From Acidobacteriota bacterium (lineage in GTDB: Bacteria; Acidobacteriota; Vicinamibacteria; Vicinamibacterales; UBA2999): a stretch of DNA of 48,007 bases. The notes below the pieces were generated by a model. It made no database searches, had not been told where the DNA came from, and saw only the letters and a program-made list of their open reading frames with translations. The first letter of the stretch is position 1. Each line of letters opens with the position of its first letter. Shown in pieces: positions 13,138-47,852 of the stretch. The stretch covers positions 1 to 48,007 of the forward strand of contig JAQBVV010000008.1 in the NCBI GenBank assembly GCA_027622905.1. The letters are read 5' to 3'. Position numbers and translations under genes: made by a program.

Positions 13138-15426
13138 TTGTTCGACGCCGTCTTTCAAGCCCTGTTCAGCCATCGGCTGGTCGTTTTCCAGCAGGGTGAA
13201 TTCCGCTTTGACCTCACGACGGGTTCGCTGGTGGCCGCCACGCTGGTCGGCGCGATCATGGCCGCGGCGATCGTCACGTACCGGCGCGTGGGCGGCAAGG
13301 GACGTGTGCGCGATCGCGTGGTGCTCACGGCGCTGCGCCTGGCGGCGCTGGCGCTCGTGCTGTTCTGTCTGTTCCGGCCGACCCTCGTCGTCCGCGCGGC
13401 GGTTCCGCAGCAGAACGTCGTGGCGGTGCTGCTCGACGATTCGCGCAGTATGCAGATTCCGGACTGGAACGGGCAGGCGCGCGGGGCATACCTGACGGAG
13501 CAGTTTGGTACGCCAGACGGTCCCCTGCTGCAGGCGCTGTCGGACCGGTTCCTGGTTCGCGTGTTCCGCTTCTCGTCGACGGCCGGACGGCTGGAGGCGC
13601 CAGGCTCCCTCACCTTCAGCGGCTCGCAGACGCGGCTGGGTGCCGCGCTGGACGGCGCGCGTGACGAGCTGGCGGGTCTCCCCGTGTCGGGCATCGTGCT
13701 GGTGTCTGACGGCGCTGATACGAGGGACGGGTCGATGGCCGAGGCGCTACTGGGGCTCAAGGCTCAGCAGTTGCCTGTCTATACCGTGGGCGTCGGGAGT
13801 CCGCAACTACCGCGCGACATTCAGATCGATCGTGTCAATACGCCGCGGGTGGCTCTCAAGGATGCCTCGCTGCTGGTGGATGTCACCGTGACGCAGACCG
13901 GCTACGCCGGCAGGACCATCACCATCTACGTGGAGGATGAGGGCCGGATCGTGGGATCCGAGGAGCTCCAGCTCCCGGCCGACGGCCGCCCGGCCACGGT
14001 GCAGGTCCGCGCGGCCGCGTCGGAAGCGGGGCCTCGGCTGTTCACGTTTCGCGTGGCGCCGCTGGCCGACGAGATGATCACGCAGAACAACGCGCGCCAG
14101 GCCCTCATCGATGTCCGCGACCATCGGGAGAAGATCCTTTATTTCGAGGGCGAGCCGCGTTTCGAGATGAAGTTCCTCCGTCGAGCGGTGGCCGACGACG
14201 AGAATCTCCAGGTTGTCGCGCTCCAGCGGACGGCTGACAACAAGTTTCTGCGTCTCGAGGTCGACGACCCCGACGAACTGCTCGGCGGCTTCCCCAGAAC
14301 GCGCGAGGAGCTCTTCTCCTACCGGGCGCTGATTCTCGGCAGCATCGAGGCTGGCGCGTTCACCGGCGATCAGCTGCAGATGATCGCGGACTTCGTGGAC
14401 CGTCGCGGCGGCGGCCTGCTGATGATCGGGGGCGCGCGGGCCTTCGGCGAAGGCGGCTACGGGGGCACGCCGGTGGCGGATGTCCTGCCCCTCATCATTG
14501 ATCCGAATACGCGCGCCTCGGAGCCGGGGGACCTGGCGAGATTACAGGTGCTGCCCACGCGTGCAGGCGAGACCCACGCGTCGACGCAGATTGCGGCCAC
14601 CGAAGGGGCGTCCGCCGCCCGGTGGCGTGACCTGCCGCAGGTGACGAGCGTCAATGCGCCGCTGGAGCCGAAGCCAGCGGCCATCGTGCTGCTCAACGGC
14701 ACTGACGAGCGCGGTCGCGAGCAGCCGGTGCTGACGTGGCAACAGTACGGTCGGGGCAAGGCGGTGGCGCTCACGCTCCAGGACACGTGGCAGTGGCAGA
14801 TGCACGCGACGATGTCGCTCGAGGATCAGACGCACGAGAACTACTGGCGGCAGATGTTGCGATGGTTGGTCAACGGCGTGCCCGGTGTCGTGGAGGCTCG
14901 CGGCGCGGTCGAGCGTGTCGAGCCTGGTGAGCCGATCGTGGTGGAGGCGACGGTCAAGGACAAGGCGCATGTCGAGCTCAACGGCGCCGATGTCACGGCG
15001 CGCGTGACGCGGCCGAATGGCGGGACGATCGACGTGCCTCTTGAGTGGAGCGGCGACGTCGATGGACTGTATCGCGGGACCTTCGTCAGCACCGAGGCCG
15101 GCACCTACGAAGTGGCGGTGGACGCGTCCGAGGGAGCCGACATCGTCGGCAGCGACGTGGCGTTCGTGCGAGCAGGCCCGAGCGACGAGGAGTTCTTCGA
15201 CCCGACGATGCACGAGGGGCCGTTGCAGCGTATCGCCGACGAATCGGGGGGGCGTTTCTACACCCCGGAGACCGCTGCCGGGCTCGCGGAGGATGTGCGC
15301 TACACGGGGCGTGGCGTGACGTCGGTCGAGGAGCGCGACTTGTGGAACATGCCGATCGTGCTGATCGTCTTGATGAGCCTGATGTGTGCCGAGTGGGGCT
15401 ATCGTCGCGCGGTGGGGTTGTCCTGA
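13138..15426 (+). CDS. Membrane protein with VWA (MIDAS) and glutamine-amidotransferase-like domain
   Basis: TTG start after GGGGGAG; N-terminal TM segments; LLDDSRSM (DxSxS); ALILGSIEAGAFTGDQLQMIADFVDRRGGGLLMIGG; C-terminal TM. Confidence 0.82.
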   Translation: MFDAVFQALFSHRLVVFQQGEFRFDLTTGSLVAATLVGAIMAAAIVTYRRVGGKGRVRDRVVLTALRLAALALVLFCLFRPTLVVRAAVPQQNVVAVLLDDSRSMQIPDWNGQARGAYLTEQFGTPDGPLLQALSDRFLVRVFRFSSTAGRLEAPGSLTFSGSQTRLGAALDGARDELAGLPVSGIVLVSDGADTRDGSMAEALLGLKAQQLPVYTVGVGSPQLPRDIQIDRVNTPRVALKDASLLVDVTVTQTGYAGRTITIYVEDEGRIVGSEELQLPADGRPATVQVRAAASEAGPRLFTFRVAPLADEMITQNNARQALIDVRDHREKILYFEGEPRFEMKFLRRAVADDENLQVVALQRTADNKFLRLEVDDPDELLGGFPRTREELFSYRALILGSIEAGAFTGDQLQMIADFVDRRGGGLLMIGGARAFGEGGYGGTPVADVLPLIIDPNTRASEPGDLARLQVLPTRAGETHASTQIAATEGASAARWRDLPQVTSVNAPLEPKPAAIVLLNGTDERGREQPVLTWQQYGRGKAVALTLQDTWQWQMHATMSLEDQTHENYWRQMLRWLVNGVPGVVEARGAVERVEPGEPIVVEATVKDKAHVELNGADVTARVTRPNGGTIDVPLEWSGDVDGLYRGTFVSTEAGTYEVAVDASEGADIVGSDVAFVRAGPSDEEFFDPTMHEGPLQRIADESGGRFYTPETAAGLAEDVRYTGRGVTSVEERDLWNMPIVLIVLMSLMCAEWGYRRAVGLS

Positions 15427-16355
15427 TGCTCCGCGCGTTTCTGCTGATCGCTGTCGGGCTGGCGGGTGATCCCGAGCACGCGGAGTTGTTTCAGGGGTGG
15501 GGCTCGAAGCTCGCGGAGGCGGCGGAGGCCGTCGGTGTGTCCGACGATCGTCTGGTGTATCTGGGCGACGCCGGTGAGGATCCGCGCGTGCGCGGTCGTG
15601 CCACGCGCGAGGAGATCGGCAAGGCGCTGTCTGGATTCGCCGAAGCGGCCGCGCCCGACGATGTGGTGTACGTGGTGCTGATTGGCCACGGGAGCTACGA
15701 CGGTCGGGATGCGCGGTTCAATCTTCCGGGGCCCGATATGACCGCGGCCGAGTTCAATCCATTGCTGAGCGCGATTCCCGCCCGCAACGTCGTGTTCGTC
15801 AATACGTCGAGTTCGAGCGGCCCGTTTGTCGAGGCGCTGTCAGGTCCAGGGCGCACGATCATCACCGCGACGCGGAACGGGGCCGAGCAGTTCACGACGC
15901 TGTTCGGGGGGTATTTCGTGGAGGCGTTTTCGACCGAGAACGCCGACGCCGACAAGAACCAGCGCCTGAGCATGCTGGAAGCGTTTCTGTACGCGCAGAA
16001 TGAAACCGCTCGTGCCTACGAGCAGGAGGGGCTGCTGGCGACCGAGCACGCGCTCCTCGACGACAATGGCGACAAGAAGGGCAGCCCGGATCCCACCGCC
16101 ACGGGCGACGAAGGTAGGCTGGCTGCGGCGCTGTCACTGGGCTCGACCGCTGCGGCAGCGGCGCTCCCGGACGATCCCGCGCTTCGCGCGCTCTATCTCG
16201 AGCGTCGGGAACTTGAACGGCGCGTCGAAGCATTGCGCTTGCTGAAAGGCGGTCTGCCGCCGGCCAGGTACGCCGCCGATCTCGAACGCCTGGTGACCGA
16301 CCTCGCGTTGAAGACCCGTGAAATTCGCACTCTTGAGGGAGACGCCACGCCATGA
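15426..16355 (+). CDS. Caspase/legumain-fold (C13/C14-like) protein with apparent loss of catalytic Cys
   Basis: ATG overlaps upstream stop (TGATG); VVYVVLIGHGSYDG (HG motif), VVFVNTSSSSGPFVEALSGPGRTIITATRNGAEQ where DACxSG is expected. Confidence 0.65.
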   Translation: MLRAFLLIAVGLAGDPEHAELFQGWGSKLAEAAEAVGVSDDRLVYLGDAGEDPRVRGRATREEIGKALSGFAEAAAPDDVVYVVLIGHGSYDGRDARFNLPGPDMTAAEFNPLLSAIPARNVVFVNTSSSSGPFVEALSGPGRTIITATRNGAEQFTTLFGGYFVEAFSTENADADKNQRLSMLEAFLYAQNETARAYEQEGLLATEHALLDDNGDKKGSPDPTATGDEGRLAAALSLGSTAAAAALPDDPALRALYLERRELERRVEALRLLKGGLPPARYAADLERLVTDLALKTREIRTLEGDATP

Positions 16356-17407
16356 GCGATCAAGTTGTATTGAATCAACCAGTGACCGAAGCCGTCGATC
16401 TTGAATCGGCCGACGATCTTGCGCTTGCTGAACGCATGAAGGTGGGCCGCGAGCAGGTCCTGACGGAACTCCGAAAGATCATTGTCGGGCAGGACGAGGT
16501 GATCTCGCAGGTGCTGATGACGCTGTTTGTCGGCGGGAACAGCCTGATCGTCGGCGCGCCCGGACTGGCCAAGACGCTGCTGATCCACACGATGGCACGT
16601 GTTCTTGACCTGAAGTTTTCGCGTATCCAGTTCACGCCGGACCTGATGCCGTCTGACATCACTGGCACCGACCTGGTGCAGGAGGACGTGGAGACCGGCC
16701 GGCGCGAGATGGTGTTTGCGGCAGGGCCGATCTTCGCGAACATCGTGTTGGCCGACGAGATCAATCGCACGCCGCCCAAGACGCAGTCGGCGCTCCTGGA
16801 GGCGATGCAGGAGCATCGGGTCACGATCCAGGGGCGGACCTATACCCTCGACGAGCCGTTCTACGTGTTTGCGACGCAGAACCCGATCGAGCTGGAGGGC
16901 ACGTATCCGCTGCCGGAAGCGCAGCTGGACCGTTTCATGTTTCATATCGTCATCGAGCACCCGCCGTACGGCGAGGAATACGACGTCGTGCGCACGACGA
17001 CGGCCACGCGAAACCCGACGTTCGAGCGTCCGATTTCGGGGGAGGATCTCGTCGCGTTCCAGCGTCTCGTTCGGACCGTGCCTGTCGCCGAGCCGGTCAT
17101 GCGGCATGCGCTGGATATCGTGCGGGCGAGCCGGCCAAAGGACGGGACCTGCCCGGAGGACGTGGGCCGGTGGGTGGCGTTCGGTGCCAGCGTCCGCGCG
17201 GCGCAGTATCTGGTGCTCGGTGGCAAGGCCCGCGCGCTGACCGATGGCCGGTATCACGTCAGCTTCGAGGACATTCGGGCGCTGGCGCACCCGGTCCTGC
17301 GACACAGAATCATCACGAACTTCCACGCGCAGTCGGAGGGCATCACGACCGACATCCTCGTGGACAGACTACTGGCCGCGGTGCCGCTGCCGCGTTCGGG
17401 GATGTAG
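16352..17407 (+). CDS. MoxR-family AAA+ ATPase
   Basis: VGGNSLIVGAPGLAKTLL (Walker A-like), NIVLADEINRTPPKTQSALLEAMQE, FATQNPIELEGTYPLPEAQLDRF. Confidence 0.96.
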   Translation: MSDQVVLNQPVTEAVDLESADDLALAERMKVGREQVLTELRKIIVGQDEVISQVLMTLFVGGNSLIVGAPGLAKTLLIHTMARVLDLKFSRIQFTPDLMPSDITGTDLVQEDVETGRREMVFAAGPIFANIVLADEINRTPPKTQSALLEAMQEHRVTIQGRTYTLDEPFYVFATQNPIELEGTYPLPEAQLDRFMFHIVIEHPPYGEEYDVVRTTTATRNPTFERPISGEDLVAFQRLVRTVPVAEPVMRHALDIVRASRPKDGTCPEDVGRWVAFGASVRAAQYLVLGGKARALTDGRYHVSFEDIRALAHPVLRHRIITNFHAQSEGITTDILVDRLLAAVPLPRSGM

Positions 17408-17421
17408 GGAGCGAACGAACC

Positions 17422-18351
17422 ATGAGTCTACTGGGCGCCCACACCCCGGCCGCTGTTCCGGGGGCGCGCTTCATGGACCCGGCCGTGCTCGCGCGCATCG
17501 GGAATCTGGAACTGGTGTCGCGTGCGGTGTGCGACGGCTTCATCAACGGTCTACACAAGGCCCCGTACTTCGGGGCGTCGGTCGATTTCGCCGAGCATCG
17601 AGGGTACGTTCCGGGCGACGACATCCGCCGGATGGACTGGCGGGTCTGGGCGAGGACCGACCGGTACTACATCAAGGAGTACGAAGCCGAGACGAACATG
17701 AACTTCACGGTGTTGCTCGACGTGTCGAAGTCGATGGACTACGGCAGCCGTGGCATCACGAAGTTCGACTACGCGCGGATCCTGACCGCCTGCCTGACGA
17801 ACCTTGTGCATCACCAGCGCGACCGCGTGGGATTCGTCGCGTTCGACAGTGAAGTTGTCGAGCACGTGCCACCGTCGGCCAAACACATGGATACGGTGCT
17901 GCACGTGCTGGACCGCCTCAAGCCGGGCCGCCCGGGTGGCAAGATGCGCGAGCCGTTGCACAAGCTGGCAGAACATTTCGGCCGGCGGGGCGTACTGGTC
18001 GTGATTTCTGACCTCTACGAGGATCCGGAGGCGATCGTGGACGCCGTGACCCCGCTGCGCTTCCGTGGCAACGACCTGGTTGTCTTTCACGTGCTCGATC
18101 CGGCAGAGTTGGATTTTGGCTTTTCTGACGCCCAGGCGTTCGAGGATCTCGAGAGCGGGGACCAGATGCCGGTCGTGCCCGATGCCATGCGCAAGGAGTA
18201 CGTGTCACTGGTGACGGCACACGTGGACGCTCTGCAGCGCCGTTTTTCGGAAGTTCGCGTGGACTATGAACTGCTGAACACGTCGCAACCGCTCGACCAC
18301 GCGCTGTACAAGTATCTGGCTGGACGGGCGAAGCGGACGCGGCTACGGTAG
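17422..18351 (+). CDS. DUF58 domain protein
   Basis: ATG at 17422; GDDIRRMDWRVWARTDRYYIKEYEAETNMNFTVLLDVSKSMDYG. Confidence 0.95.
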   Translation: MSLLGAHTPAAVPGARFMDPAVLARIGNLELVSRAVCDGFINGLHKAPYFGASVDFAEHRGYVPGDDIRRMDWRVWARTDRYYIKEYEAETNMNFTVLLDVSKSMDYGSRGITKFDYARILTACLTNLVHHQRDRVGFVAFDSEVVEHVPPSAKHMDTVLHVLDRLKPGRPGGKMREPLHKLAEHFGRRGVLVVISDLYEDPEAIVDAVTPLRFRGNDLVVFHVLDPAELDFGFSDAQAFEDLESGDQMPVVPDAMRKEYVSLVTAHVDALQRRFSEVRVDYELLNTSQPLDHALYKYLAGRAKRTRLR

Positions 18352-18388
18352 CCAGAGAGACTCCATTGAACCTCGGTAGAGAGGACGC

Positions 18389-20431
18389 ATGTCATTCATA
18401 GCCCCGCTCTTCTTTGTCGCGCTCGCCGCCCTGGCGATTCCGGTGCTGATCCACCTGATCCAGCGGGAGAAGAAGCAAATCATCCGCTTTCCGTCGCTGA
18501 TGTTTGTGCAGCGCGTGCCGTACAAGTCGATTCAGCGCCGACGGGTGCATAACTGGCTGCTGCTCCTCGTCCGTATGGCGGCCCTGGCGTTGATCGTGCT
18601 GGCATTCGCGCGCCCCTTCTTCCTAGGGCAGGACCTGGGGGCCGTCGCCGGGGCCGGGGCGAGGGAAGTCGTGATCCTGCTCGATCAGAGCTATAGCCTT
18701 GGATACGCAGATCGATGGGAACGCGCGCAGGCCGCGGCGTCCGAGGCAGTCGATGGCCTTGGGCCGGCTGATCGCGGTTCGGTGGTGCTGTTTTCGTCGG
18801 GCGCGGAGATCGCCCTGCGTTCGGTGGCGGCCGGCGAGCGCCAGCGACTGCGGGCGGCAATCGATGTGGCGGAGACAACCGCCGGGGCCACCCGTTTCGC
18901 GCCGGCGCTGAAGGTGGCGGGCAGCATCCTCGCCGACTCCGCGTTACCGCGTCGTGAGGTCATTCTGATCAGCGACTTCCAGCGTGGCGGGTGGCGCGGC
19001 GAGGAGGGCGCGAGTCTCCCGGAGGGTGCCACGGTGACCCCGGTGCCGATCGCAGGCGGCGCCGACGCGCCCAACGTGGCGGTGAATGCGGTCTCGCTGG
19101 CTCGCTCGACGTTCTCCAATCAAGAGCGCGTGGCCGTGAGTGCCGTCGTCGTCAATCGCAGTGCCGAGCCACTCGCAGGCGGGCAACTCGCCCTTGAGAT
19201 CGATGGACGATCGATCCAGACCGAAGCGCTCGACGTTGCGGCGGGGAGTTCGGCGTCGGTCACCTTCGCGCCTGTCACGATCGCGGGGCGCTTCCTGCGC
19301 GGGAGCGTGCGGGCGACTCCGGACGCGCTGGATGCCGACAACGTGTTTCACTTCGTGGTGTCCCCAGTGGTACCGGTCCAGGTCGTGGTCGTTGACCGTG
19401 GCGGCACCGGGAGCGCGGCGTTGTACCTGACGCGTGCGCTGGCGATCGGTGATGCGCCGCGTTTCGAGACCACCGTTCGCCAGCCGGATGCGCTGTCGGA
19501 CGCGGATCTGCGCGGGGCGTCGGTTGTGGTGATCAACGATGTCGCCGTGTCAGCGGCGCTCGGCCGGCGTCTGGCGCGCTTTGTCGAGTCGGGAGGCGGC
19601 CTGCTCGTGGCGCTTGGGCCTCGAGCCGCGTGGCCACAGGGTGTCGATATCCTTCCGGCCGCACTTCGCGAGCGGGTCGATCGCACGCGCGACGACGCGG
19701 CGCGCATCGGCGCGCTCGAGTACGGCCACTCCGTGTTCGAGCCGTTTCGTGCGCCGCGGAGCGGAGACTTTTCCGCCGCGCGGATCTACGGCTATCGGGC
19801 TGTCGAGACTGACCCGTCTGCGCAGATCCTGGCGCGGTTCGACGCGGGTGCGCCGGCGCTGCTCGAGCGGCAGGTGGGTGCGGGTCGTGTGCTGCTGTGG
19901 ACGTCCACGCTTGACCTGTCGTGGAGCGACCTGCCCCTGAAGCCGGTGTTTCTTCCATTCATCCATCAGGCGGCGCGCCAGCTATCGGCGTATGCCGAGT
20001 CGCCGCCGTGGTTGACGGTTGGCCAGGTCATGGACGCCTCGTTCGGCGAATCGACGTTATCGCTGGGTGGCGCGGTCGTGTTGACGCCGTCAGGGCGGCA
20101 GGTACCCCTCGATGAGGAGGGGGCGGACGTCCTGGAGTTGTCCGAAAGCGGGTTCTACGAACTGCGTACCGGGGAGAGCGACAGCGTGGCGACCGTCGTG
20201 GCCAGCAACGTCGATTCAGTCGAATCCGATCTCACGGCCATGGATCCGCAGGATATCGTCGCCGCGGCGACAGCCGGCGCGGGCGAAGGCGCTCGATCCG
20301 CCGCCGCGGGGGGGGCGCCGCCACCGGAGGCACAGGAGCAGTCACAGCGACTGTGGTGGTATCTGCTGTGTTTCGGCATCGTGCTGCTGGGGGCCGACAC
20401 GCTGATATCGAATCGGATGTCGAAAGCCTAG
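18389..20431 (+). CDS. BatA-like N-terminal double-TM + VWA protein
   Basis: MSFIAPLFFVALAALAIPVLIHLIQREKKQIIRFPSLMFV typical BatA N-term; VVILLDQSYSLGY (DxSxS); C-terminal TM. Confidence 0.92.
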   Translation: MSFIAPLFFVALAALAIPVLIHLIQREKKQIIRFPSLMFVQRVPYKSIQRRRVHNWLLLLVRMAALALIVLAFARPFFLGQDLGAVAGAGAREVVILLDQSYSLGYADRWERAQAAASEAVDGLGPADRGSVVLFSSGAEIALRSVAAGERQRLRAAIDVAETTAGATRFAPALKVAGSILADSALPRREVILISDFQRGGWRGEEGASLPEGATVTPVPIAGGADAPNVAVNAVSLARSTFSNQERVAVSAVVVNRSAEPLAGGQLALEIDGRSIQTEALDVAAGSSASVTFAPVTIAGRFLRGSVRATPDALDADNVFHFVVSPVVPVQVVVVDRGGTGSAALYLTRALAIGDAPRFETTVRQPDALSDADLRGASVVVINDVAVSAALGRRLARFVESGGGLLVALGPRAAWPQGVDILPAALRERVDRTRDDAARIGALEYGHSVFEPFRAPRSGDFSAARIYGYRAVETDPSAQILARFDAGAPALLERQVGAGRVLLWTSTLDLSWSDLPLKPVFLPFIHQAARQLSAYAESPPWLTVGQVMDASFGESTLSLGGAVVLTPSGRQVPLDEEGADVLELSESGFYELRTGESDSVATVVASNVDSVESDLTAMDPQDIVAAATAGAGEGARSAAAGGAPPPEAQEQSQRLWWYLLCFGIVLLGADTLISNRMSKA

Positions 20432-20533
20432 AGCGTTTTTCGATTTGGTGTAGACCGAAAAACGCGGGAAAGCGCTTTTCGAAAAGGTCTGGCCACTGCG
20501 AGAAGCCCCAGATCGAAACGAAAAGCGCCCTAG
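20428..20533. repeat. MITE/REP-like palindromic element with imperfect 15-bp terminal inverted repeats
   Basis: ctagagcgtttttcg (20428-20442) vs reverse complement of cgaaaagcgccctag (20519-20533), 13/15 identical; internal perfect 10-bp IRs gcgtttttcg(20433-20442)/cgaaaaacgc(20456-20465) and gcgcttttcg(20472-20481)/cgaaaagcgc(20519-20528). Confidence 0.6.
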
Positions 20534-20757
20534 GCACATTGACGAGCGCGGGGCGGGGGCGACAGTCCTCTGCTGGCCGCAGGGGGCGGCGATCACATAC
20601 CAGTGGAGGTGAAATCCGCGCTAGGTGCCCACACCGCGTTGGGCGTATTCTGAGGGCTAGCGGGTCTCGTGCGTGGGGACCGCTTGAGCGAGGTCGGGCA
20701 CCGAGGGCCGGGCGAGCATGTCGCTTTGGTTTCGGCGCCATTCCGCGAGAGGGCTAG

Positions 20758-23700
20758 ATGCTCGATAACTTCGACGATCTGCAGCAAACCGCCACGACCA
20801 ATCCCGGTATCACCCGCCTCGTCAGCGACGTACGCAAGCGCTGGCGTTTCAAGCTGGCGCTGCGCGGCGTCGCGCGGATCGTCGGTGTCGCGGTCGGCCT
20901 GTTCGTCGTGGCCGCCTACGCGATGGAATGGGCGAGATTCTCTCCGGCGGCGATCATGACCGCGCGGATCGCGCTGGCAGCCGCGGTGCTGGGCTCGGTG
21001 TGGATGTTCCTGGTACGACCGCTCAGGCGGCGCGTCACCGACGAGCAGGTTGCGCTGTATCTCGAGGAGCATGAGCCCTCGTTGCAGACGCGACTGGTGA
21101 GCGCCGTTGAGGCGAGCCAGACCGGCGGCGCGTCGGAATCGCCGGCGCTGGTCCGGCGTCTCGTGGAGCAGGCGCTCGAGGCATGCGCGTTGACCGGCGT
21201 GGTGCGCCGCACGGAAGACGCGCCGCTCAAACGCTGGGGCGTGTTGCTGGGCGGCGTTGCGGCTGCCGGCATCTTGATCGTGCTGTTTGGACCCGCGTTC
21301 ATGCGAAACGCGCTGTCTGCGATCTTGCTCGTGCAGCGAAGTGTCGAGGCGGCGGCGCCGTATCGGATTGCCGTGCTACCCGGCGATGCGGTCGTGCCGC
21401 GGGGAGCGGATCAAACCATCAGCGCCACCCTGAGTGGTTTCGCGTCGGAGGACGCCTCGGTCATGCTCCGGCGCGCGCCGACGGAGCCGTACGAAGAGAT
21501 GCCCCTCGTGCTGGGCGAGGATGGTCAGTACGAAGGTATCGTCTTCGACGTCGACGCGCCTCTCGAGTATTTCGTCGAGGCGGATGGCGTGCGTTCTTCG
21601 GTGTACACGCTGACGGTCATCGAAGCGCCATACGTCGAGCGGGTCGAGCTGGAGTATCACTTCCCGGCGTATACCGGCCTTGATCCGCAGACGATCGAGA
21701 ACGGCGGCGACATCGCGGTGTTGCAGGGGACCGAAGTCCGGCTTCGGGTGTTCTCGACAATGACGACGCCCGGAGGGAGGGTCGCGCTGAACGAGGAGGA
21801 CTCCGCCGCGCTGACGGCCCAGCCCGACGGTTCGCTGACGGCGGCCTTCACGGCCGATCGCGATGGATTTTACCGGATCGAGCTCGATGCGCCGACCGGG
21901 GAGCGGACGGCGGCGTCCCCGCAGTACACCATCGATGTGCTGACCGACCAGCCGCCGATCGTCTCGTTCGCCAGACCCGGCCGTGACACGTCGGCGTCGT
22001 CCATCGAAGAGGTGTACGTCGAGGCGCAGGCGGAGGACGACTTCGGGGTTCGCGATCTTGAGCTGGTGTACTCGGTCAATGGCGGGCCGGAGCAGACCGT
22101 GACGTTGTTTGGCGGTCGCACGCGCCTGCCAGAAGTCACCGCCGGACACACGTTCTATATCGAGGAGCTCGGCGTGGAGCCCGGTGACTCGGTGTCGTAT
22201 TACGCCCGCGCCCGCGACGATTCAGCAGGGGACCGCGAACCGGTCTCGAGCGACCTGTATTTCCTCCGTATTCGCCCCTTCCAGCGCGATTTCCGTCAGG
22301 CGCAGTCCCAGGGTGGCGGAGGTGGTGGCGGTGGTGGCGGAGGCGGACAGGTCGAAGCGCTGTCCGAGCAGCAGCGGCAGATTATTTCCGCCACGTTCAA
22401 CATCCAGCGCGATCGTCGCAACACGTCAGCGGAGGGTCTGCGCGAAAGCACGACCGTCGTCAGTCTGTCCCAGTCGAGGCTGCGCGAGCAGGTCGAGGGG
22501 CTGCTGACCCGCATGAACAGCCAGCTCATCGAGCGCGATCCTGCCTTCGAGACGATCGCGGCACTGCTTCCCCAGGCGGTCGAGGCGATGGCCGAGGCGG
22601 AAGGCCGGCTCTCGGCGGCGAGTCCGGATACGGCGCTGCCGCCAGAGCATCGCGCGTTGCAGATCTTGCAGAAAGCTGAAGAAGAGTACGAGATGCAGAT
22701 CAGCGCCCAGCAGGGCGGTGGCGGTGGTGGCGGCGGGAGCGCGCAGCAGCAGGAGCTTGCCGAGATCTTTGATCAGGAACTCGAGAACATGGCCAGCCGC
22801 TACGAGACCGCCAACCAGGCGCGGCAACAGAATGCCGACCGGGAGGTCGACGAGCTGCTGGAAAAGCTGAAGGAGCTCGCGCGTCGCCAGGAGCAGGAAG
22901 CCGCGCGGCAGCAGCTTCGGAACATGGGGCAGACCGGCGGCAGTGCCGGCAACGCGGCGCAGCAACGGGCGCTGGCCGAGCAGGCAGAGGAGGCGGCTCG
23001 ACGACTGGAGCGCCTGGCCCGTGAGGAGAACCGTCCCGACCTCCAGGAGGCCGCGCGACAGATGCAGCAGGCGGCCGACGCCATGCGCCGAGCGGCCGCT
23101 GGCGGTGACGGCAATGCGGCGGCGCAGGCTGCCGCCGCCCTTGAGCGGCTGCGGGACACCGAACGCCAGCTGCAGGAGAATCAGGCCGGTCGTGCCGAGC
23201 GGGATGTCGCCGACGCGATCCGCCAGGCTGACGACATTGCCCGGCGTCAGGAGGACGTGGGCGGCGACGCTCGCGCGCTGGCCGAGGTGGCCAACTCCGC
23301 TGAACGTCGTGAGCAGGCTCAGCGCGTGAACGACCAGAAGAGTGATCTGGAGGCGCGACTGAACGCACTGGAGCAGCAGCTCGATCGCGCGGCCCGAGAC
23401 GCGAGTGGCACCGAAGCTGCGGCGTCACGCAGGATGGCCGAAGCGGCGGGTTCGATTCGCGACAATCGTCTCGGCGACAAGCTGCGCTATTCCCAGAACC
23501 TGGTCAACCGAGGCTCGCCACCGCAGTCAGTGAACGCCGCCGAGAACGACATTGCCAGCGGAATCGACGAGATGCGAGACCGGCTGCGGGAGGCGGCCAG
23601 CGCGCTCGGTCAGGGCAACGAGAACGCCAACCGGATGGAGAACGCGCTCGAACGGGCTCGGCGTCTGGCGCGGGCGGCAGAATCGCTCCAGGAGCGCACG

Positions 23701-24351
23701 CGTGAGCGCGCGCAGCGTCAGGCTGAGCAGGGCCAGCAGGCTGAGGGACAGCAAGGACAGCAAGGACAGCAAGGACAGCAAGGACAGCAAGGACAGCAAG
23801 GCCAGGGGCAGCAGGGCGAAGGGCAGGGTCAAGGGCAAGGGCAAGGCGAAGGTCAGGGACAAGGTCAAGGCCAGGGACAGCAGGCGGGCCAGGGTGGTGG
23901 GGGCGGCGCCGACGGTCAGCAGGCCGGCGGAGGCAACGCCGATGGAGGCGCCCGCGGCGGCTACGGAGGCGGCGGATGGGGTTGGGGCCAGGGTTGGCAA
24001 CTGACAGACGAGGACATACGACAGTTGCGCGGCGAGGCGCGCCAGTGGGCGGGTGAGGCACAAGCGCTGCGAGGTGAGCTTGCCGCCGAGAGCGTGGACC
24101 CGCGCGAGCTTGACGAGATTCTCGGCGCGCTGCGAGAGCTGGACGATCCCCGCGTCTACCAGGACGTCTCCGAGCTTCAGCGCTTGCAGTCGCTTGTCGC
24201 CGAAGGTCTGAAGCGATTCGAGTTCGGCCTGTGGCGTCAGTCGGAGGCCGACGCCAACACGATCGTGTTGTCCGGCTCCGACGAGGTTCCGGAGGAGTTT
24301 CGTCAGTTGGTGCAGGAGTACTACAGGTCTCTCGCCAGGACTCCAAAATGA
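20758..24351 (+). CDS. Large DUF4175-like membrane protein with coiled-coil and Gln/Gly-rich repeat C-terminal half
   Basis: 1197 aa; N-terminal TM segments, Ig-like extracellular region, polyGly tracts, long Gln/Glu/Arg/Ala-rich coiled coil, GQQ/GQG repeats. Confidence 0.85.
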   Translation: MLDNFDDLQQTATTNPGITRLVSDVRKRWRFKLALRGVARIVGVAVGLFVVAAYAMEWARFSPAAIMTARIALAAAVLGSVWMFLVRPLRRRVTDEQVALYLEEHEPSLQTRLVSAVEASQTGGASESPALVRRLVEQALEACALTGVVRRTEDAPLKRWGVLLGGVAAAGILIVLFGPAFMRNALSAILLVQRSVEAAAPYRIAVLPGDAVVPRGADQTISATLSGFASEDASVMLRRAPTEPYEEMPLVLGEDGQYEGIVFDVDAPLEYFVEADGVRSSVYTLTVIEAPYVERVELEYHFPAYTGLDPQTIENGGDIAVLQGTEVRLRVFSTMTTPGGRVALNEEDSAALTAQPDGSLTAAFTADRDGFYRIELDAPTGERTAASPQYTIDVLTDQPPIVSFARPGRDTSASSIEEVYVEAQAEDDFGVRDLELVYSVNGGPEQTVTLFGGRTRLPEVTAGHTFYIEELGVEPGDSVSYYARARDDSAGDREPVSSDLYFLRIRPFQRDFRQAQSQGGGGGGGGGGGGQVEALSEQQRQIISATFNIQRDRRNTSAEGLRESTTVVSLSQSRLREQVEGLLTRMNSQLIERDPAFETIAALLPQAVEAMAEAEGRLSAASPDTALPPEHRALQILQKAEEEYEMQISAQQGGGGGGGGSAQQQELAEIFDQELENMASRYETANQARQQNADREVDELLEKLKELARRQEQEAARQQLRNMGQTGGSAGNAAQQRALAEQAEEAARRLERLAREENRPDLQEAARQMQQAADAMRRAAAGGDGNAAAQAAAALERLRDTERQLQENQAGRAERDVADAIRQADDIARRQEDVGGDARALAEVANSAERREQAQRVNDQKSDLEARLNALEQQLDRAARDASGTEAAASRRMAEAAGSIRDNRLGDKLRYSQNLVNRGSPPQSVNAAENDIASGIDEMRDRLREAASALGQGNENANRMENALERARRLARAAESLQERTRERAQRQAEQGQQAEGQQGQQGQQGQQGQQGQQGQGQQGEGQGQGQGQGEGQGQGQGQGQQAGQGGGGGADGQQAGGGNADGGARGGYGGGGWGWGQGWQLTDEDIRQLRGEARQWAGEAQALRGELAAESVDPRELDEILGALRELDDPRVYQDVSELQRLQSLVAEGLKRFEFGLWRQSEADANTIVLSGSDEVPEEFRQLVQEYYRSLARTPK
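23746..23799 (+). repeat. 9-bp coding tandem repeat (ggacagcaa x6) encoding Gly-Gln-Gln, followed by degenerate GQ/GEG repeats to ~23890
   Basis: Six perfect consecutive copies read directly. Confidence 0.93.
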
Positions 24352-25169
24352 AGTCGGCGTCGGTCGCGCTCGTGCTGGCGCTGTGCGTCGCGAGCGTGGC
24401 GTCGGCTCAGTTCGGTCGCCGTGGTGGCGGGAACGGGCGGTATCCCCCGAAGTTTGCCAACGCCGACAGCTTTGGCAAGGGGTTCAACTTCTGCCGCGGC
24501 GTGTACACCAGCGGCCACAGGGAGCCCGGTGGGCAGGGTTGGTCGACTGACTACCCCGACGCAGAGCGCAACTTTTCCACGCGCCTCTCGGAAATCACGA
24601 AGACCCGCGTCAGCATGGACTCTCGCGGCCAGCCTGACCACCTGGTGGTGCGGTTGACGGAAGACGCGCTGTATCAGTGTCCGTACCTCCACATGGAGGA
24701 CGTGGGTACGGCCGTGCTGGACGAGGCGGAAGTGCTCGGCTTGCGTGCGTTCCTGCTCAAGGGTGGGTTTCTCTGGGTCGATGATTACTGGGGCAGCTAC
24801 GCGGAGTACAGCTGGCTCGATCAGCTTTCCCGCGTGCTCCCTCGCTCCGAGTACCCCGTCCTCGATTTGTCATGGGATCACCCGATTTTCAAGACGATGT
24901 TCGAGGTGACGTCGCTGCCGCAGATACCCTCGATCCAGTTCTGGCGCACGAGTCGAGGCGGCACATCTGAACGAGGCTCTGACAGCGCCACGGCGACGAT
25001 TCAGGGTATTGCCGATCGGCATGGAAACCTGATGGTGGTGATGACGCACAACACTGATATCTCGGATGCCTGGGAGCGAGAAGGGGAAGACCCGAGGTTT
25101 TTCTACAAGTTTTCGCCGGACGGATACGCCGTGGGCATCAATGTCATCCTGTACGCGTTGACCCATTGA
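24348..25169 (+). CDS. DUF4159 protein (secreted), copy 1
   Basis: ATGA overlap with upstream gene; signal peptide MKSASVALVLALCVASVASAQ; ALRAFLLKGGFLWVDDYWG-type core. Confidence 0.88.
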   Translation: MKSASVALVLALCVASVASAQFGRRGGGNGRYPPKFANADSFGKGFNFCRGVYTSGHREPGGQGWSTDYPDAERNFSTRLSEITKTRVSMDSRGQPDHLVVRLTEDALYQCPYLHMEDVGTAVLDEAEVLGLRAFLLKGGFLWVDDYWGSYAEYSWLDQLSRVLPRSEYPVLDLSWDHPIFKTMFEVTSLPQIPSIQFWRTSRGGTSERGSDSATATIQGIADRHGNLMVVMTHNTDISDAWEREGEDPRFFYKFSPDGYAVGINVILYALTH

Positions 25170-25176
25170 GTCCGTG

Positions 25177-25944
25177 ATGCGTCAGAGACCCGCCGTCGCT
25201 GGTTTACTGCTTCTCGTCCTGCTGGTGCCGCTGGTGGCCTCCGGGCAGGGTCGGCGTTCACTGCGCCAGGCTGATGTGGCCGTCGACTACGACAGCCACT
25301 TCGCGTTCACCAGGATTCGGTACGGTGCCGGCCGCGAGGGGCTTGCCAGAGGGTTCTTCGGCGGGAGCAACGCCTGGGCCCATGACTATCCGGTCGCAGA
25401 TCGAAACCTGGCGGCCATTCTCGACTACATCACCAACATGAGAGTCCGGCTCGACGGCAGCAATATCCTCGATCTCGACGACCCACGAATCTTCGAGAAT
25501 CCGATTCTCTACATGTCGGAGCCGGGTTACTGGGTGACCAACGACGGCGAAGCCGAGTCTCTTCGCGCCTACCTGCTCAAAGGCGGGTTCATCATCTTCG
25601 ACGACTTCGAGGGAGATGGGCACTGGCGGAACCTGGTGGCCCAGATGAACCGGGCGCTTCCAGGCCACCACTTCATTCACCTCGATGTGAGCCATCCGAT
25701 CTTCCAGACCTTCTTCGGCATCAGGCATCTCAATATTCCGCATCCGACGGTCAACGTGCCGCCGGATTACTTCGCGATCTTCGAGAACAACGATCCCTCC
25801 GGGCGGATGCTGGCGCTGGCCAACTGGAACAACGATCTCGGCGACTACTGGGAGTGGTCGGCTGAAGGCTTGTACGGCGACGATCCCACGAATGATGCCT
25901 ACCGTCTCGGTGTGAACTACATCGTGTACGCGATGACGCACTGA
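25177..25944 (+). CDS. DUF4159 protein (secreted), copy 2
   Basis: Signal peptide; SLRAYLLKGGFIIFDDFEG, LDVSHPIFQTFFGI, YRLGVNYIVYAMTH parallel to copy 1 (INVILYALTH). Confidence 0.88.
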   Translation: MRQRPAVAGLLLLVLLVPLVASGQGRRSLRQADVAVDYDSHFAFTRIRYGAGREGLARGFFGGSNAWAHDYPVADRNLAAILDYITNMRVRLDGSNILDLDDPRIFENPILYMSEPGYWVTNDGEAESLRAYLLKGGFIIFDDFEGDGHWRNLVAQMNRALPGHHFIHLDVSHPIFQTFFGIRHLNIPHPTVNVPPDYFAIFENNDPSGRMLALANWNNDLGDYWEWSAEGLYGDDPTNDAYRLGVNYIVYAMTH

Positions 25945-42157: not shown

Positions 42158-44542
42158 CTAATGTGTGCGGGTATCTCCCGCGTCCACGGCTTCCGCCACG
42201 ACGGGGGTGGCGGGGATACGTGTCGGCAAAGGTCCGGCGAGGGCAATCTTCAGCACTTCGTCCATCGTTGACACGAGATGCAGGTCAAGCGCATCGAGGA
42301 CAGACTTCGGAATGTCCGCGAGGTCCTTCTCGTTGTCGCGCGGCAGAATGATATTGGTGACCCCGGCTCGGTGGGCCGCGAGTACCTTCTCCTTGATTCC
42401 GCCGATCGGCAGGACCTTGCCGCGCAGGGTGATCTCGCCGGTCATGGCCACATCGCGCCGCGTTGGAATCTTCGTCAGGGCCGACACCAGTGTGGTGGCC
42501 ATTGTGATCCCTGCTGATGGCCCGTCTTTCGGGATCGCGCCTTCGGGCACGTGCACGTGGATATCGATCTTCGAATGGAAGTCTTCCGGCAGGCTCAGTT
42601 CAGCGGCCTTCGAACGCACGTAGCTCAACGCAGCCTGTGCCGACTCCTGCATGACGTCACCCAGCTTCCCGGTCAATGTCAACTTCCCCTTGCCAGCCAT
42701 GAGCGTGGCTTCGCTGACGAGCAGTTCGCCCCCGACTTCGGTCCACGCGAGGCCGGTGGCGATCCCCACCTCGTTCTGTTCCTCGGCCATGCTCGGGCGG
42801 AAGCGCGGCACGCCAAGATGCGTGGTCACGCCTTCGGCCGTGATCTCTTCCGTGTACGCTTTGCCCTGATCAACGACCTTTCGCGCGACTTTGCGGCAGA
42901 TGGACGAGATTTCTCGCTCGAGGTTCCGAACACCCGCCTCGCGCGTGTAGCGCTGAATAATGGTCTGAATGGCGTCCTGACGAATGACGATGTTCTTCTT
43001 CGTGAGGCCCGAGCCTTCGATCGCCTTTGGCGCCAGGAAGCGCATCGCAATCTCCGTTTTTTCCTGTTCGGTGTACCCGGCCAGTTGCAGCACTTCCATG
43101 CGGTCGCGCAGGGCCTGGGGCACCGTGTGGAGCACGTTGGCGGTGCAGATGAACATCACGTGCGAGAGGTCGTACTCGACGTCGAGGTAGTGGTCAAGAA
43201 ACGAGCCGTTTTGCTCGGGGTCGAGCACTTCCAGCAGCGCGGCCGAGGGGTCGCCACGGAAGTCCATCGACATCTTGTCGATCTCGTCCAGGAGAAAGAC
43301 CGGATTCTGCGTGCCGGCCTTCTTCATCATCTGGATGATCTGGCCGGGGAAGGCGCCGATGTACGTGCGCCGGTGCCCGCGCACCTCCGCCTCGTCGCGC
43401 ACGCCGCCGAGCGACAGCCGAACGAACTTGCGATTCATCGCGCGCGCGATCGACTTGGCCAGCGATGTCTTGCCTACGCCGGGAGGCCCGGAAAACGTCA
43501 AGATGGTGGCCTTGGGCTTTCTGACGAGCGAGCGGACGGCCAGAAACTCCAGGATCCGGTCCTTGATCTTGTCGAGACCGTAGTGGTCCTCGTGCAAGAC
43601 GGCTTCAGCGTGCTTCAGGTCCCGGTTCTCGCGCGTCTTCTTGTACCAGGGGACGGCGATGAGCCAGTCGAGGTAGTTGCGCGACACGGTGGCCTCGGCC
43701 GACATCGGAGGCATCGCTTCGAGTCGCTTCAACTCCTGGACGGCCTTCTCCTCCACGTCCTTCGGCATCTTGGCCTGCTGAATCTTCTTCTTCAGCTCGT
43801 CGACCTCGTCGCCCTTCTCGTCCTTGCGACCAAGCTCCTTCTGGATCGCCTTCATCTTCTCGTTGAGGTAGTACTCCTTCTGCGCCTTCTCCATCTGCTT
43901 CTTCACGCGAGACTGGATTCGGCGATCCACCTGGAGCTTGTCGACTTCGATTTCGAGGATGCCGGCGATGCGGTTCAGGCGTTCGAGCGGGGAGTTGATC
44001 TCCAGCAGGTTCTGCTTCTCGTCCACCCCGACGAGCAGGTGAGCGGCGATGGTGTCGGCGAGCTTGCCGGGGTCGTCCACGCGGACGGCTGCGATCATCG
44101 CGTCGTAGTGAAGGTTGTTGGACAACTTGACGTACTGCTCAAACAGCGTCACCACGCGACCCATGGTGGCCTCGACGTCGCCAGCCGCCTCCTTCTGCTT
44201 CGCCAGGACCTTGATCACGACGCGGTAGAAGCCCTTGTCTTCCTTCCACTCGACGGCTCGTGCCCGATCCACGCCCTCGACGAGGACCTTGATGTTGCCA
44301 TCAGGCAACTTGAGGCTCTGTACCACGTTGGCCACGCAGCCCATCGTGTACACGTCGTCAGGCTTCGGATCGTCGATCGACGCGTCGTGCTGGACGGCGA
44401 GGAAGATCCGCTTGTCCTTCAGCAGCGCGTGCTCCAGCGCACGCGTCGATGACGGGCGTCCAATGACGAACGGCATCATCATGTGGGGGAAGACGACCAC
44501 GTCCCTGAGCGGGACGATCGGGAGCGTTTCGTAGACTTCCAT
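42158..44542 (-). CDS. lon: Endopeptidase La (Lon protease)
   Basis: [48 protein letters not shown], catalytic [11 protein letters not shown]. Confidence 0.98.
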
Positions 44543-44603
44543 GTGGGTCCTTGTGATCCGGAAACCGGAGGGTCTCCGCGACTGAGGGGCCGACGCTTTC
44601 GGC

Positions 44604-45851
<1,248 letters not shown>

Positions 45852-45877
45852 ACGTCAACCGGAAGCCTTCATCGATG

Positions 45878-46489
45878 CTACACCCGTTTCCGGATGACGT
45901 CATCGATAATCCCGTATTCCTTCCCCTGATCCGCGGACATGATGTAATCCCGTTCCGTGTCCTCCTGGATGCGCTTCACCGGCTGCCCCGTGTGGTGGAC
46001 GAGGATCTCGTTCAACCGTTCGCGCATGCGCAGGATCTCGCGTGCTGCGATATCGATGTCGGTGGCCTGGCCAGCCAGGCCCTGCATGAGCGGCTGGTGG
46101 ATCACGATGCGCGAATTCGGCAGCGAGTAGCGTTTGCCGCTGGCGCCCGCCGCCAGCAGCACGGCTGCCATCGACGCGGCCTGCCCGATGCAGAAGGTCT
46201 GTACATCCGGCTTGATGAATTGCATCGTGTCGTAGATCGCAAGCCCGGCCGTGATCGATCCTCCGGGACTGTTGATATACAGAAGGATGTCCTTGTCCGG
46301 ATCTTCGGCTTCGAGGAACAACATCTGGGCGATGACGAGATTCGCGATGCCGTCGTCGATCGGCGTGCCAACGAAGATGATGCTGTCTTTGAGCAGGCGC
46401 GAGAAGATGTCGTACGCGCGCTCTCCCCGGTTGGTCTGTTCGACCACCATGGGTACCAGCTGGGCGTGAGGTTCGATCGGATGGCGCAT
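45878..46489 (-). CDS. clpP: ATP-dependent Clp protease proteolytic subunit
   Basis: [74 protein letters not shown]. Start [10 protein letters not shown] at 46489. Confidence 0.98.
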
Positions 46490-46559
46490 GGCTGATTGAT
46501 GGTCCGTGTTCACGATCTGCGAATCGCGTGTGGGTAACTGGAGGTTGGCGACAGAATCG

Positions 46560-47852
46560 TCACGGCGTGCCCGTGGTGGGTCTATCCACTATCGTAGCAC
46601 GTGACAACACCAAGTCTACCGCCTTCTCCCGTCGTAAACCCGCATAGAGTCGCGCGATTCCGCCTTCCTTTTCAATTTGTGCCCGCAGAGCCGTCGGCGT
46701 TCGACCCGCCCTGGCTGCGAACCCTTCGATCTCTTTATCGACATCTTCGCTGGCAACCGTAATATCTTCCCGCCGGGCAACCTCATCCAGCACCAGGGCG
46801 CTTGCGGTCGCTTCCTGTGCCGGCTCCCGCTGCGCTTCACGAAATTGCGCCCAGTCGATGCCCGCCTCACGGGGGTCGAGCTTCTGGGAGGCGAGCTGGC
46901 GAGCAAACTCCTCCAGGCGGCGGTCCATCTCCTTTTCGACCAGTGAGGCCGGCAACTCGAACGTGACCCGTTTGGCGAGCTGTGCGAACAGTTCGGCGCG
47001 CACTTCTCGCGTCGCCTTGTCCTCGGCTTCGCGCGTGAGGTCCGCCGTGATGCGTTCGCGCAGTGCGGCGAGCGACTCGAACTCACCCAGGTCCTTGGCG
47101 AATTCGTCATCAAGCTCCGGCAGCACGCGGCGCCGTATCCCCGTGAGCGTCACGGTGTAGGTCTGATCGGTGTCCGCCAGATCCGACGCGGGGTAGTCCG
47201 CGGGAAAGTGAATCGTGAACGTTCTCGACTCGTCGGGATTCATCCCGAGCAGCTCTGCGTCGAATCCCGGCGGGTTCCCCGGCGCGCCCAGCTGAACGGT
47301 GACCTCGTCGTGGTGGTCGAGCTGGCCGTCGGGACCCGTGCGATCGAGGACAAGCACCACCGCGTCGCTTTCGGCGACCGCGCGTCCCTCGACCGGCTCG
47401 TAGGTGCCCGCCCGATCGCGAAGGCGTTGCAGCATGTCGGCAATCGCCTCGTCGGCCACCTCGGTGGATGGGCGCTCGAGCGTGATCGACGAGAAGTCCC
47501 CCGGATCGAACGCAGGGACAGTCTCGATGGCGGCCGTGAACGTCATCGGCCGTCCTTCTTCAAGCTCGACGTCCTTGATGTCGGGCGTGTTGATCGGCTC
47601 GATGCCCCGTTCCTGCATCGCTTCCTCGACGGCTCGAGGAATGAGGTCATGCATCACGTCGTGCATGATCTGTTCTTTGAAGCGCCGCTTGATGAGCGCC
47701 TGCGGTGCCTTGCCCGGCCGGAAGCCGGGAAGCCGCGCCTGTTTCGCGTACCCGCGGGCCACGCGGTTGATTTCCGCGTCGACGACGTCGATGGGGATCT
47801 CGATCGCGACCGTCTTCCGCGTGGCGCTTACGTCCGTAACTTCAGTCTTCAT
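46560..47852 (-). CDS. tig: Trigger factor
   Basis: [19 protein letters not shown] and order tig-clpP-clpX. Confidence 0.97.

Follow-up and report, generated by a model that had tools for sequence, protein, structure and literature searches.

The window analysed here is the whole stretch of 48,007 nucleotides at positions 1 to 48,007, forward strand, of contig JAQBVV010000008.1 (assembly GCA_027622905.1) from an Acidobacteriota bacterium of the order Vicinamibacterales. It carries eight co-directional genes at 13138-25944, designated A to H, which include a MoxR ATPase and three proteins with a metal ion-dependent adhesion site (MIDAS) of the von Willebrand factor A (VWA) type. Judged by gene order and distribution, this cluster is one multi-component, envelope-associated MoxR/VWA system, conserved across several phyla. 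New here are the pseudo-peptidase status of B, a ninth component (T) encoded outside the window, and the loss of the B signal peptide in the window's family.

The gene cluster and its products

13138-15426, plus strand: A, membrane protein with VWA and GATase1_like domains (Pfam scan; PF07090, 35 bits, above the cut-off)
15426-16355, plus strand: B, Peptidase_C13-like, legumain-fold pseudo-peptidase (PF01650, 24.5 bits)
16352-17407, plus strand: C, MoxR AAA+ ATPase (PF07726, AAA_3, 205 bits)
17422-18351, plus strand: D, soluble DUF58 protein without transmembrane segment (TM) (PF01882, 152 bits)
18389-20431, plus strand: E, BatA-type N-terminal double TM, VWA, DUF4350/GATase-like region and C-terminal TM (PF07584, 68 bits; VWA_2, 47 bits; DUF4350, E 2e-4; TIGR02226)
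20432-20757, plus strand: E-F gap of 326 nt with hairpin-forming inverted repeats
20758-24351, plus strand: F, DUF4175 protein of 1197 aa, rich in Gln, Gly and Ala (PF13779, 54 bits)
24348-25169, plus strand: G, secreted DUF4159 protein (PF13709, 112 bits; leader hydrophobic stretch 4-22)
25174-25944, plus strand: H, secreted DUF4159 protein with signal peptide (PF13709, 145 bits)

Gene calls and Pfam families bear out the row of co-directional genes with start/stop overlaps described in the first-pass annotation of this DNA, the overlaps being 1 nt at A/B, 4 nt at B/C and 4 nt at F/G; the start of D lies at 17422, as judged from its start codon and conserved sequence, and not at 17170 as in the list of open reading frames (ORFs). 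The three intact MIDAS motifs reported there are indeed present as DxSxS in A (LLDDSRSM), D (LLDVSKSM) and E (LLDQSYSL). Among homologues the motif is kept in D (77/77) and E (76/76) and is absent from 12 of 111 A proteins, mostly truncated ORFs, and all 81 MoxR homologues retain Walker A (GxPGxAKT), with Walker B kept in all but one (80/81). The genome has no second strong MoxR besides C (about 205-207 bits, other AAA_3 matches scoring at most 31 bits) and no DUF58 gene besides D, so the cluster is its only system of this kind.

F exceeds the DUF4175 cut-off (27.3 bits) over two partial stretches, and hydropathy places N-terminal TMs at residues 38-56, 68-86 and 162-180, followed by about 1000 predicted periplasmic residues. 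Its earlier description as a giant coiled-coil protein stands for its length, membrane anchor and Gln-richness, coiled-coil character being suggested by composition only. Tandem repeats occupy 23746-23879 within the gene, and a 9-nt unit, GGACAGCAA (Gly-Gln-Gln), spans 23746-23805. Upstream, the spacing between E and F is roughly 50 nt in relatives as against 326 nt in the window, where two inverted repeats have their arms at 20433-20442/20456-20465 and 20472-20492/20508-20528.

G and H, expected to be twin secreted DUF4159 proteins, both have signal peptides and score well over the cut-off of 25.9 bits; H also matches PDB 4I66 in sequence (E 1e-16) and in fold (E 3e-11). Alignment of DUF4159 with the corresponding region of E was weak (probability 16%, E 0.0015), and Foldseek matches to the GATase fold were not significant. 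DUF4159 proteins are not exclusive to such clusters: of the six DUF4159 genes in the window's genome, four (contigs C204, C165 and C94; loci L161-L163) lie outside any MoxR cluster. One of these outside genes is found about 1 kb from a respiratory gene set of the molybdopterin/ferredoxin type (L161:12141-15169, as seen in the N-terminal sequence only).

Protein B and the co-inherited set

The AlphaFold2 model of B has a mean predicted local distance difference test score (pLDDT) of 95, and Foldseek matched it to legumain, PIG-K and MALT1 (best E about 1e-9, probability 1.00); the sequence profile likewise matches metacaspases, with the GHG of B aligned on theirs. In an alignment of 121 homologues the Gly-His-Gly motif, which contains the catalytic His, is kept in 120, and the nucleophile site (V-N-T-x-S-x-S-G) holds Cys in none, the window protein reading VNTSSSSG where the catalytic Cys would be expected; in two homologues (L125, L144) a Cys stands one residue away. 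The motif FNLxGPD and an EF-hand-type loop, DxDx[DN]xxxSxxE (DADKNQRLSMLE in the window), are almost invariant. B therefore resembles the C13 peptidases legumain and PIG-K in fold and GHG motif, and differs from them in a fixed EF-hand-like loop and in the absence of the Cys. Because that residue is missing throughout while GHG, FNLxGPD and the loop are kept, B is, by motif table and model, a conserved legumain-fold protein that is not a cysteine peptidase, and its earlier label of pseudo-peptidase holds. A cysteine-protease fold kept in this way is a plain example of an inactive enzyme under selection.

B could instead still be a hydrolase in which Ser replaces Cys, since the position equivalent to the Cys of CxSG is Ser in 103 of the 121 homologues and the catalytic His is nearly always present. 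The other 18, however, have Ala, Glu, Gly, Pro or Thr at this position, and exchange of Cys for Ser normally inactivates caspase-fold enzymes, so that we consider such an activity very improbable.

A signal peptide precedes the first beta strand in almost every B homologue. In the window's family the B of the type I operon (described below) starts at that strand itself (MLRAFLLIVVGLAGDP; window 15426-15470) and has lost the leader, which the type II copies of the same genomes retain. The leaderless copies form one nested group in the tree, with the leader-bearing row L114 inside it; rows L044 and L046 are leaderless by eye and were classed otherwise by the labelling rule. The B of this family may thus either have moved to the cytosol or be exported by another route. 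Elsewhere, at L070:10953-12239 and in a matching locus of genome G048, a long acidic insert rich in Pro, Asp and Glu lies between the two halves of B.

Public genomes were scanned with the C13 alignment, and 80 loci were kept of 185 matches; since a single motif (FNLxGPD) was used and only these loci were retained, the set is a sample leaning to the C13 family. The 80 loci come from Acidobacteriota, Gemmatimonadota, Verrucomicrobiota, Calditrichota and one Arenicellales metagenome-assembled genome (MAG). Gene order in them is largely fixed, and of the 431 cluster genes recognised all but 2 run in the direction of their cluster. Where the flank was long enough to judge (63 loci), A stands immediately upstream of B in 59; the full set of A, C, D, E and F occurs in 25 of the 31 loci of at least 18 kb. 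Two arrangements recur: type I, as in the window, reads A-B-(DUF4159)-C-D-E-F-(DUF4159)-(DUF4159), and type II, found within the window organism's order and in a Luteitalea MAG (L139), reads T-DUF4159-MoxR-DUF58-E-F-A-B; some genomes of that order possess both. In a separate survey of Verrucomicrobiota, 6 of 115 genomes gave C13-type matches, two of them strong. The first-pass proposal of a single system survives for genes A to F, which co-occur far beyond close relatives.

Plasmid hits from Agrobacterium, Ketogulonicigenium and Rhizobium represent other MoxR/DUF58 types, and a Pseudomonas plasmid match annotated as peptidase C13 has no MoxR nearby. Loci L093, L105, L124 and L148 carry record titles (Bifidobacterium, Acidimicrobiia, Akkermansia) at odds with the relatives of their clusters, and are probably mislabelled or mixed MAGs. 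One genome holds, besides a full cluster, a shorter MoxR-DUF58-BatA-DUF4175 cluster without A, B and DUF4159 (L169, G049:C1:3105000-3120000).

Solitary C13 loci, which seemed to be exceptions to the linkage, turned out to be pairs of B with T, and this holds for the C13 loci that do not have A. T is a secreted tetratricopeptide repeat (TPR) protein with a leader and a Peptidase_MA_2 (gluzincin) domain. Its zinc-protease motif, HExxH...E, is the only intact protease motif among the components, and 48 of 51 homologues retain HExxH. Profile searches locate T beside B within the operons of Gemmatimonadota and deep Acidobacteriota; in type II operons it lies upstream of DUF4159. The window's genome has an intact T on another contig (G000:C167:20545-22974; L180:10456-13002), and it was missed by the first-pass annotation because it lies outside the window.

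Across 149 Acidobacteriota genomes, each at least 90% complete, the same 35 hold strong matches to A (E<=1e-80), B (E<=1e-60) and T (E<=1e-140), limits placed post hoc where the E-values jump, the following genomes lying near 1e-8, 7e-8 and 5e-50, respectively; one genome beyond the 35 has a partial T-like match. In several of the 35, some with these genes on different contigs, linkage is broken: T is unlinked in G000 and G039, while in G044, G054 and G182 A is separate from B and T. DUF4159, DUF4175, B and T are jointly absent from four genomes of the window's order that are at least 91% complete, and T was found in 11 of 11 genomes tested via the B-bearing loci of the C13 scan. The components form one co-inherited set.

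Membrane topology and relation to known MoxR systems

A and E are homologous across 463 columns and, by hydropathy, share an architecture of two N-terminal TMs linked by a K/R-rich loop plus one C-terminal TM; in A the TMs lie at residues 28-46, 61-79 and 735-753, the loop at 47-60 and a GATase-like region at 408-578, and an Ig-like part is also present. Hydropathy together with the positive-inside rule predicts that the VWA and GATase-like parts of both proteins are periplasmic; like F, they are inner-membrane proteins with most of their length predicted outside the cytosol. The VWA domain of Borrelia BB0173, a BatA-type protein with the same kind of anchor, is periplasmic by experiment (PMC5700661). 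MoxR and DUF58 have no leader, the single hydrophobic stretch of MoxR being within its AAA domain. Because the VWA domains of A and E are predicted to be on the far side of the membrane, MoxR should be able to meet directly only the MIDAS of DUF58, and the first-pass model, in which MoxR remodels MIDAS proteins that act on periplasmic DUF4159 partners, is not supported in that form.

The closest comparison is with Alphaproteobacteria (Shinella, Azospirillum and Methylobacterium; L174-L177), in which the order is MoxR-DUF58-[BatA fused to DUF4159]-GATase1_like. Both they and the window have contiguous, co-directional genes for MoxR, DUF58, a BatA-type protein, DUF4159 and a GATase1_like membrane protein; in the window, in contrast, DUF4159 is free and secreted, and A and E keep clear VWA domains. 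No C13 or DUF4175 was recognised near the alphaproteobacterial loci, where the TPR protease was not searched for. We take RL3499-RL3502 (cmdA-D) of Rhizobium leguminosarum to have this alphaproteobacterial layout. The window contains the cmd-type gene set with DUF4159 unfused, as compared with the Shinella, Azospirillum and Methylobacterium loci. In the MoxR literature, the RL3499 operon is cited at second hand as affecting membrane integrity and cell morphology. The statement of the first-pass annotation that the role is not defined accordingly holds only in part, the Rhizobium operon being tied to envelope integrity and shape in those accounts.

Other known systems share fewer features with the cluster. 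Bat operons, like that of Borrelia BB0173, have MoxR, DUF58 and a BatA-type VWA protein in common with it, but the window has no BatD or DUF4381 and has DUF4159, DUF4175, GATase-like and C13 members plus the TPR protease. In NorQ/NorD, too, a MoxR ATPase works on a VWA partner, yet that partner is single and the client is a known oxidoreductase, whereas the window has three VWA proteins and secreted parts. The MoxR-vWA ternary conflict systems combine MoxR, VWA and sometimes a caspase-like member (eLife 2020 e52696), but their third components are absent here (no VMAP, iSTAND, FtsH or beta-propeller component in Pfam and PADLOC scans), and none of the nine proteins matched PADLOC. AdvA of Acinetobacter baumannii, which has a DUF4175 annotation and a role in envelope and division, is likened to F by annotation, and the AdvA paper mentions no MoxR (PMC7481262). 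None of the papers listed in a literature search links MoxR with a C13 protein. Because of the likeness to the alphaproteobacterial loci, the differences from Bat and conflict systems and this lack of a literature link between MoxR and C13, the system is classed as a putative variant of the cmd-type MoxR operon, with a pseudo-C13 protein, free DUF4159, DUF4175 and a TPR protease.

Proposed mechanism and alternatives

The system is probably an ATP-driven machine for envelope assembly or quality control, and we give an even chance to the specific reading that it is an elaborated MoxR/DUF58/VWA system of cmd type, acting across the inner membrane in the assembly or upkeep of the envelope. In such a machine the MoxR hexamer would use ATP to reshape DUF58, which would engage the paralogous TM-VWA-GATase proteins A and E at their short, K/R-rich loops in the cytosol; this route for the force is inferred by analogy with the pull of NorQ on NorD, in which MoxR acts on its VWA partner (PMC13036017). 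From there the movement would reach the long F as well as the periplasmic MIDAS and GATase domains of A and E, and these may together scaffold or load the DUF4159 proteins. B, dead but fixed in sequence, would be a subunit with a structural or regulatory task, perhaps recognising substrates for T or inhibiting it, and periplasmic proteolysis would thereby depend on what state the machine is in; without its leader, the B of the window's family would be shifted to the MoxR side. Carried further, the cytosolic MoxR engine might govern periplasmic proteolysis, with B as recognition or inhibitor subunit of T, coupled via A, and cytosolic in the window's family. This extension is rather doubtful in our view; if true, it would amount to a hitherto undescribed kind of protease system, ATP-governed and trans-envelope.

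Several points weigh against the envelope-machine reading. The C13-containing version is known from sequence, structure prediction and genome comparison, and the contacts of DUF58 with A and E, of B with T and of F with DUF4159 are proposals; the topology is hydropathy-based, and the envelope role is assigned by analogy with Rhizobium, with no B near the alphaproteobacterial loci examined. The genomes are mostly MAGs and the presence/absence tallies ignore kinship. T, moreover, is single-copy even where a genome has two operons.

The linkage could be historical, A, B and T being a periplasmic module merely parked beside an ordinary MoxR/DUF58/BatA operon. T-B pairs without the remaining genes nearby would fit this, as would the Verrucomicrobiota loci L130 and L143, where A-B stands apart from MoxR genes. 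All parts are nonetheless kept together in two differently arranged operons, strong A, B and T matches coincide in the same Acidobacteriota genomes and A is homologous to E, so that we regard a parked module as unlikely. Slightly less likely still is a cofactor- or metal-insertion chaperone like NorQD or CoxDE, maturing one metalloenzyme in or at the membrane while the periplasmic parts hold the client. MoxR/VWA pairs of known role are mostly chaperones of this kind (PMC13036017; PMC3893208), but no client enzyme gene was recognised within the operons, whose flanks were not systematically annotated, and three VWA proteins, two of them predicted to lie across the membrane from MoxR, are accompanied by secreted proteins and a protease; mutants of the RL3499 type, in the accounts mentioned above, show envelope and not enzyme defects.

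That the cluster is a Bat-type aerotolerance or oxidative-stress operon with added genes would account for MoxR, DUF58 and the BatA double-TM VWA protein, and appears improbable: a Pfam scan of the eight proteins detected neither BatD nor DUF4381, while the Bat-type comparison operon on an Agrobacterium plasmid (L173; MoxR-DUF58-DUF4381-VWA-VWA-BatD) scores lower with the same profiles and gives no match to E, F, G or B, and the role of Bat in oxidative stress is itself unproven. A conflict or cell-death system with a caspase-fold effector is the least credible alternative, for the shared trio of MoxR, VWA and caspase-fold member is set against the want of PADLOC matches and of ternary components, the universal absence of the Cys in that member, and parts that are fixed, mostly single-copy and in their majority membrane-bound or secreted.

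The strict co-inheritance of A, the pseudo-legumain and the TPR zinc protease turns a widespread type of operon (MoxR/DUF58/VWA) into a short, testable list of partners, and T provides a protease whose substrates could be sought by proteomics. Few genetic systems exist for Acidobacteriota and Gemmatimonadota, and the parts list offers a way into their envelope biology as well as into the Rhizobium cmd phenotype. Away from the cluster, the window also carries a minus-strand row of Lon, ClpX-type and trigger factor genes (42158-47852), a housekeeping proteostasis set.

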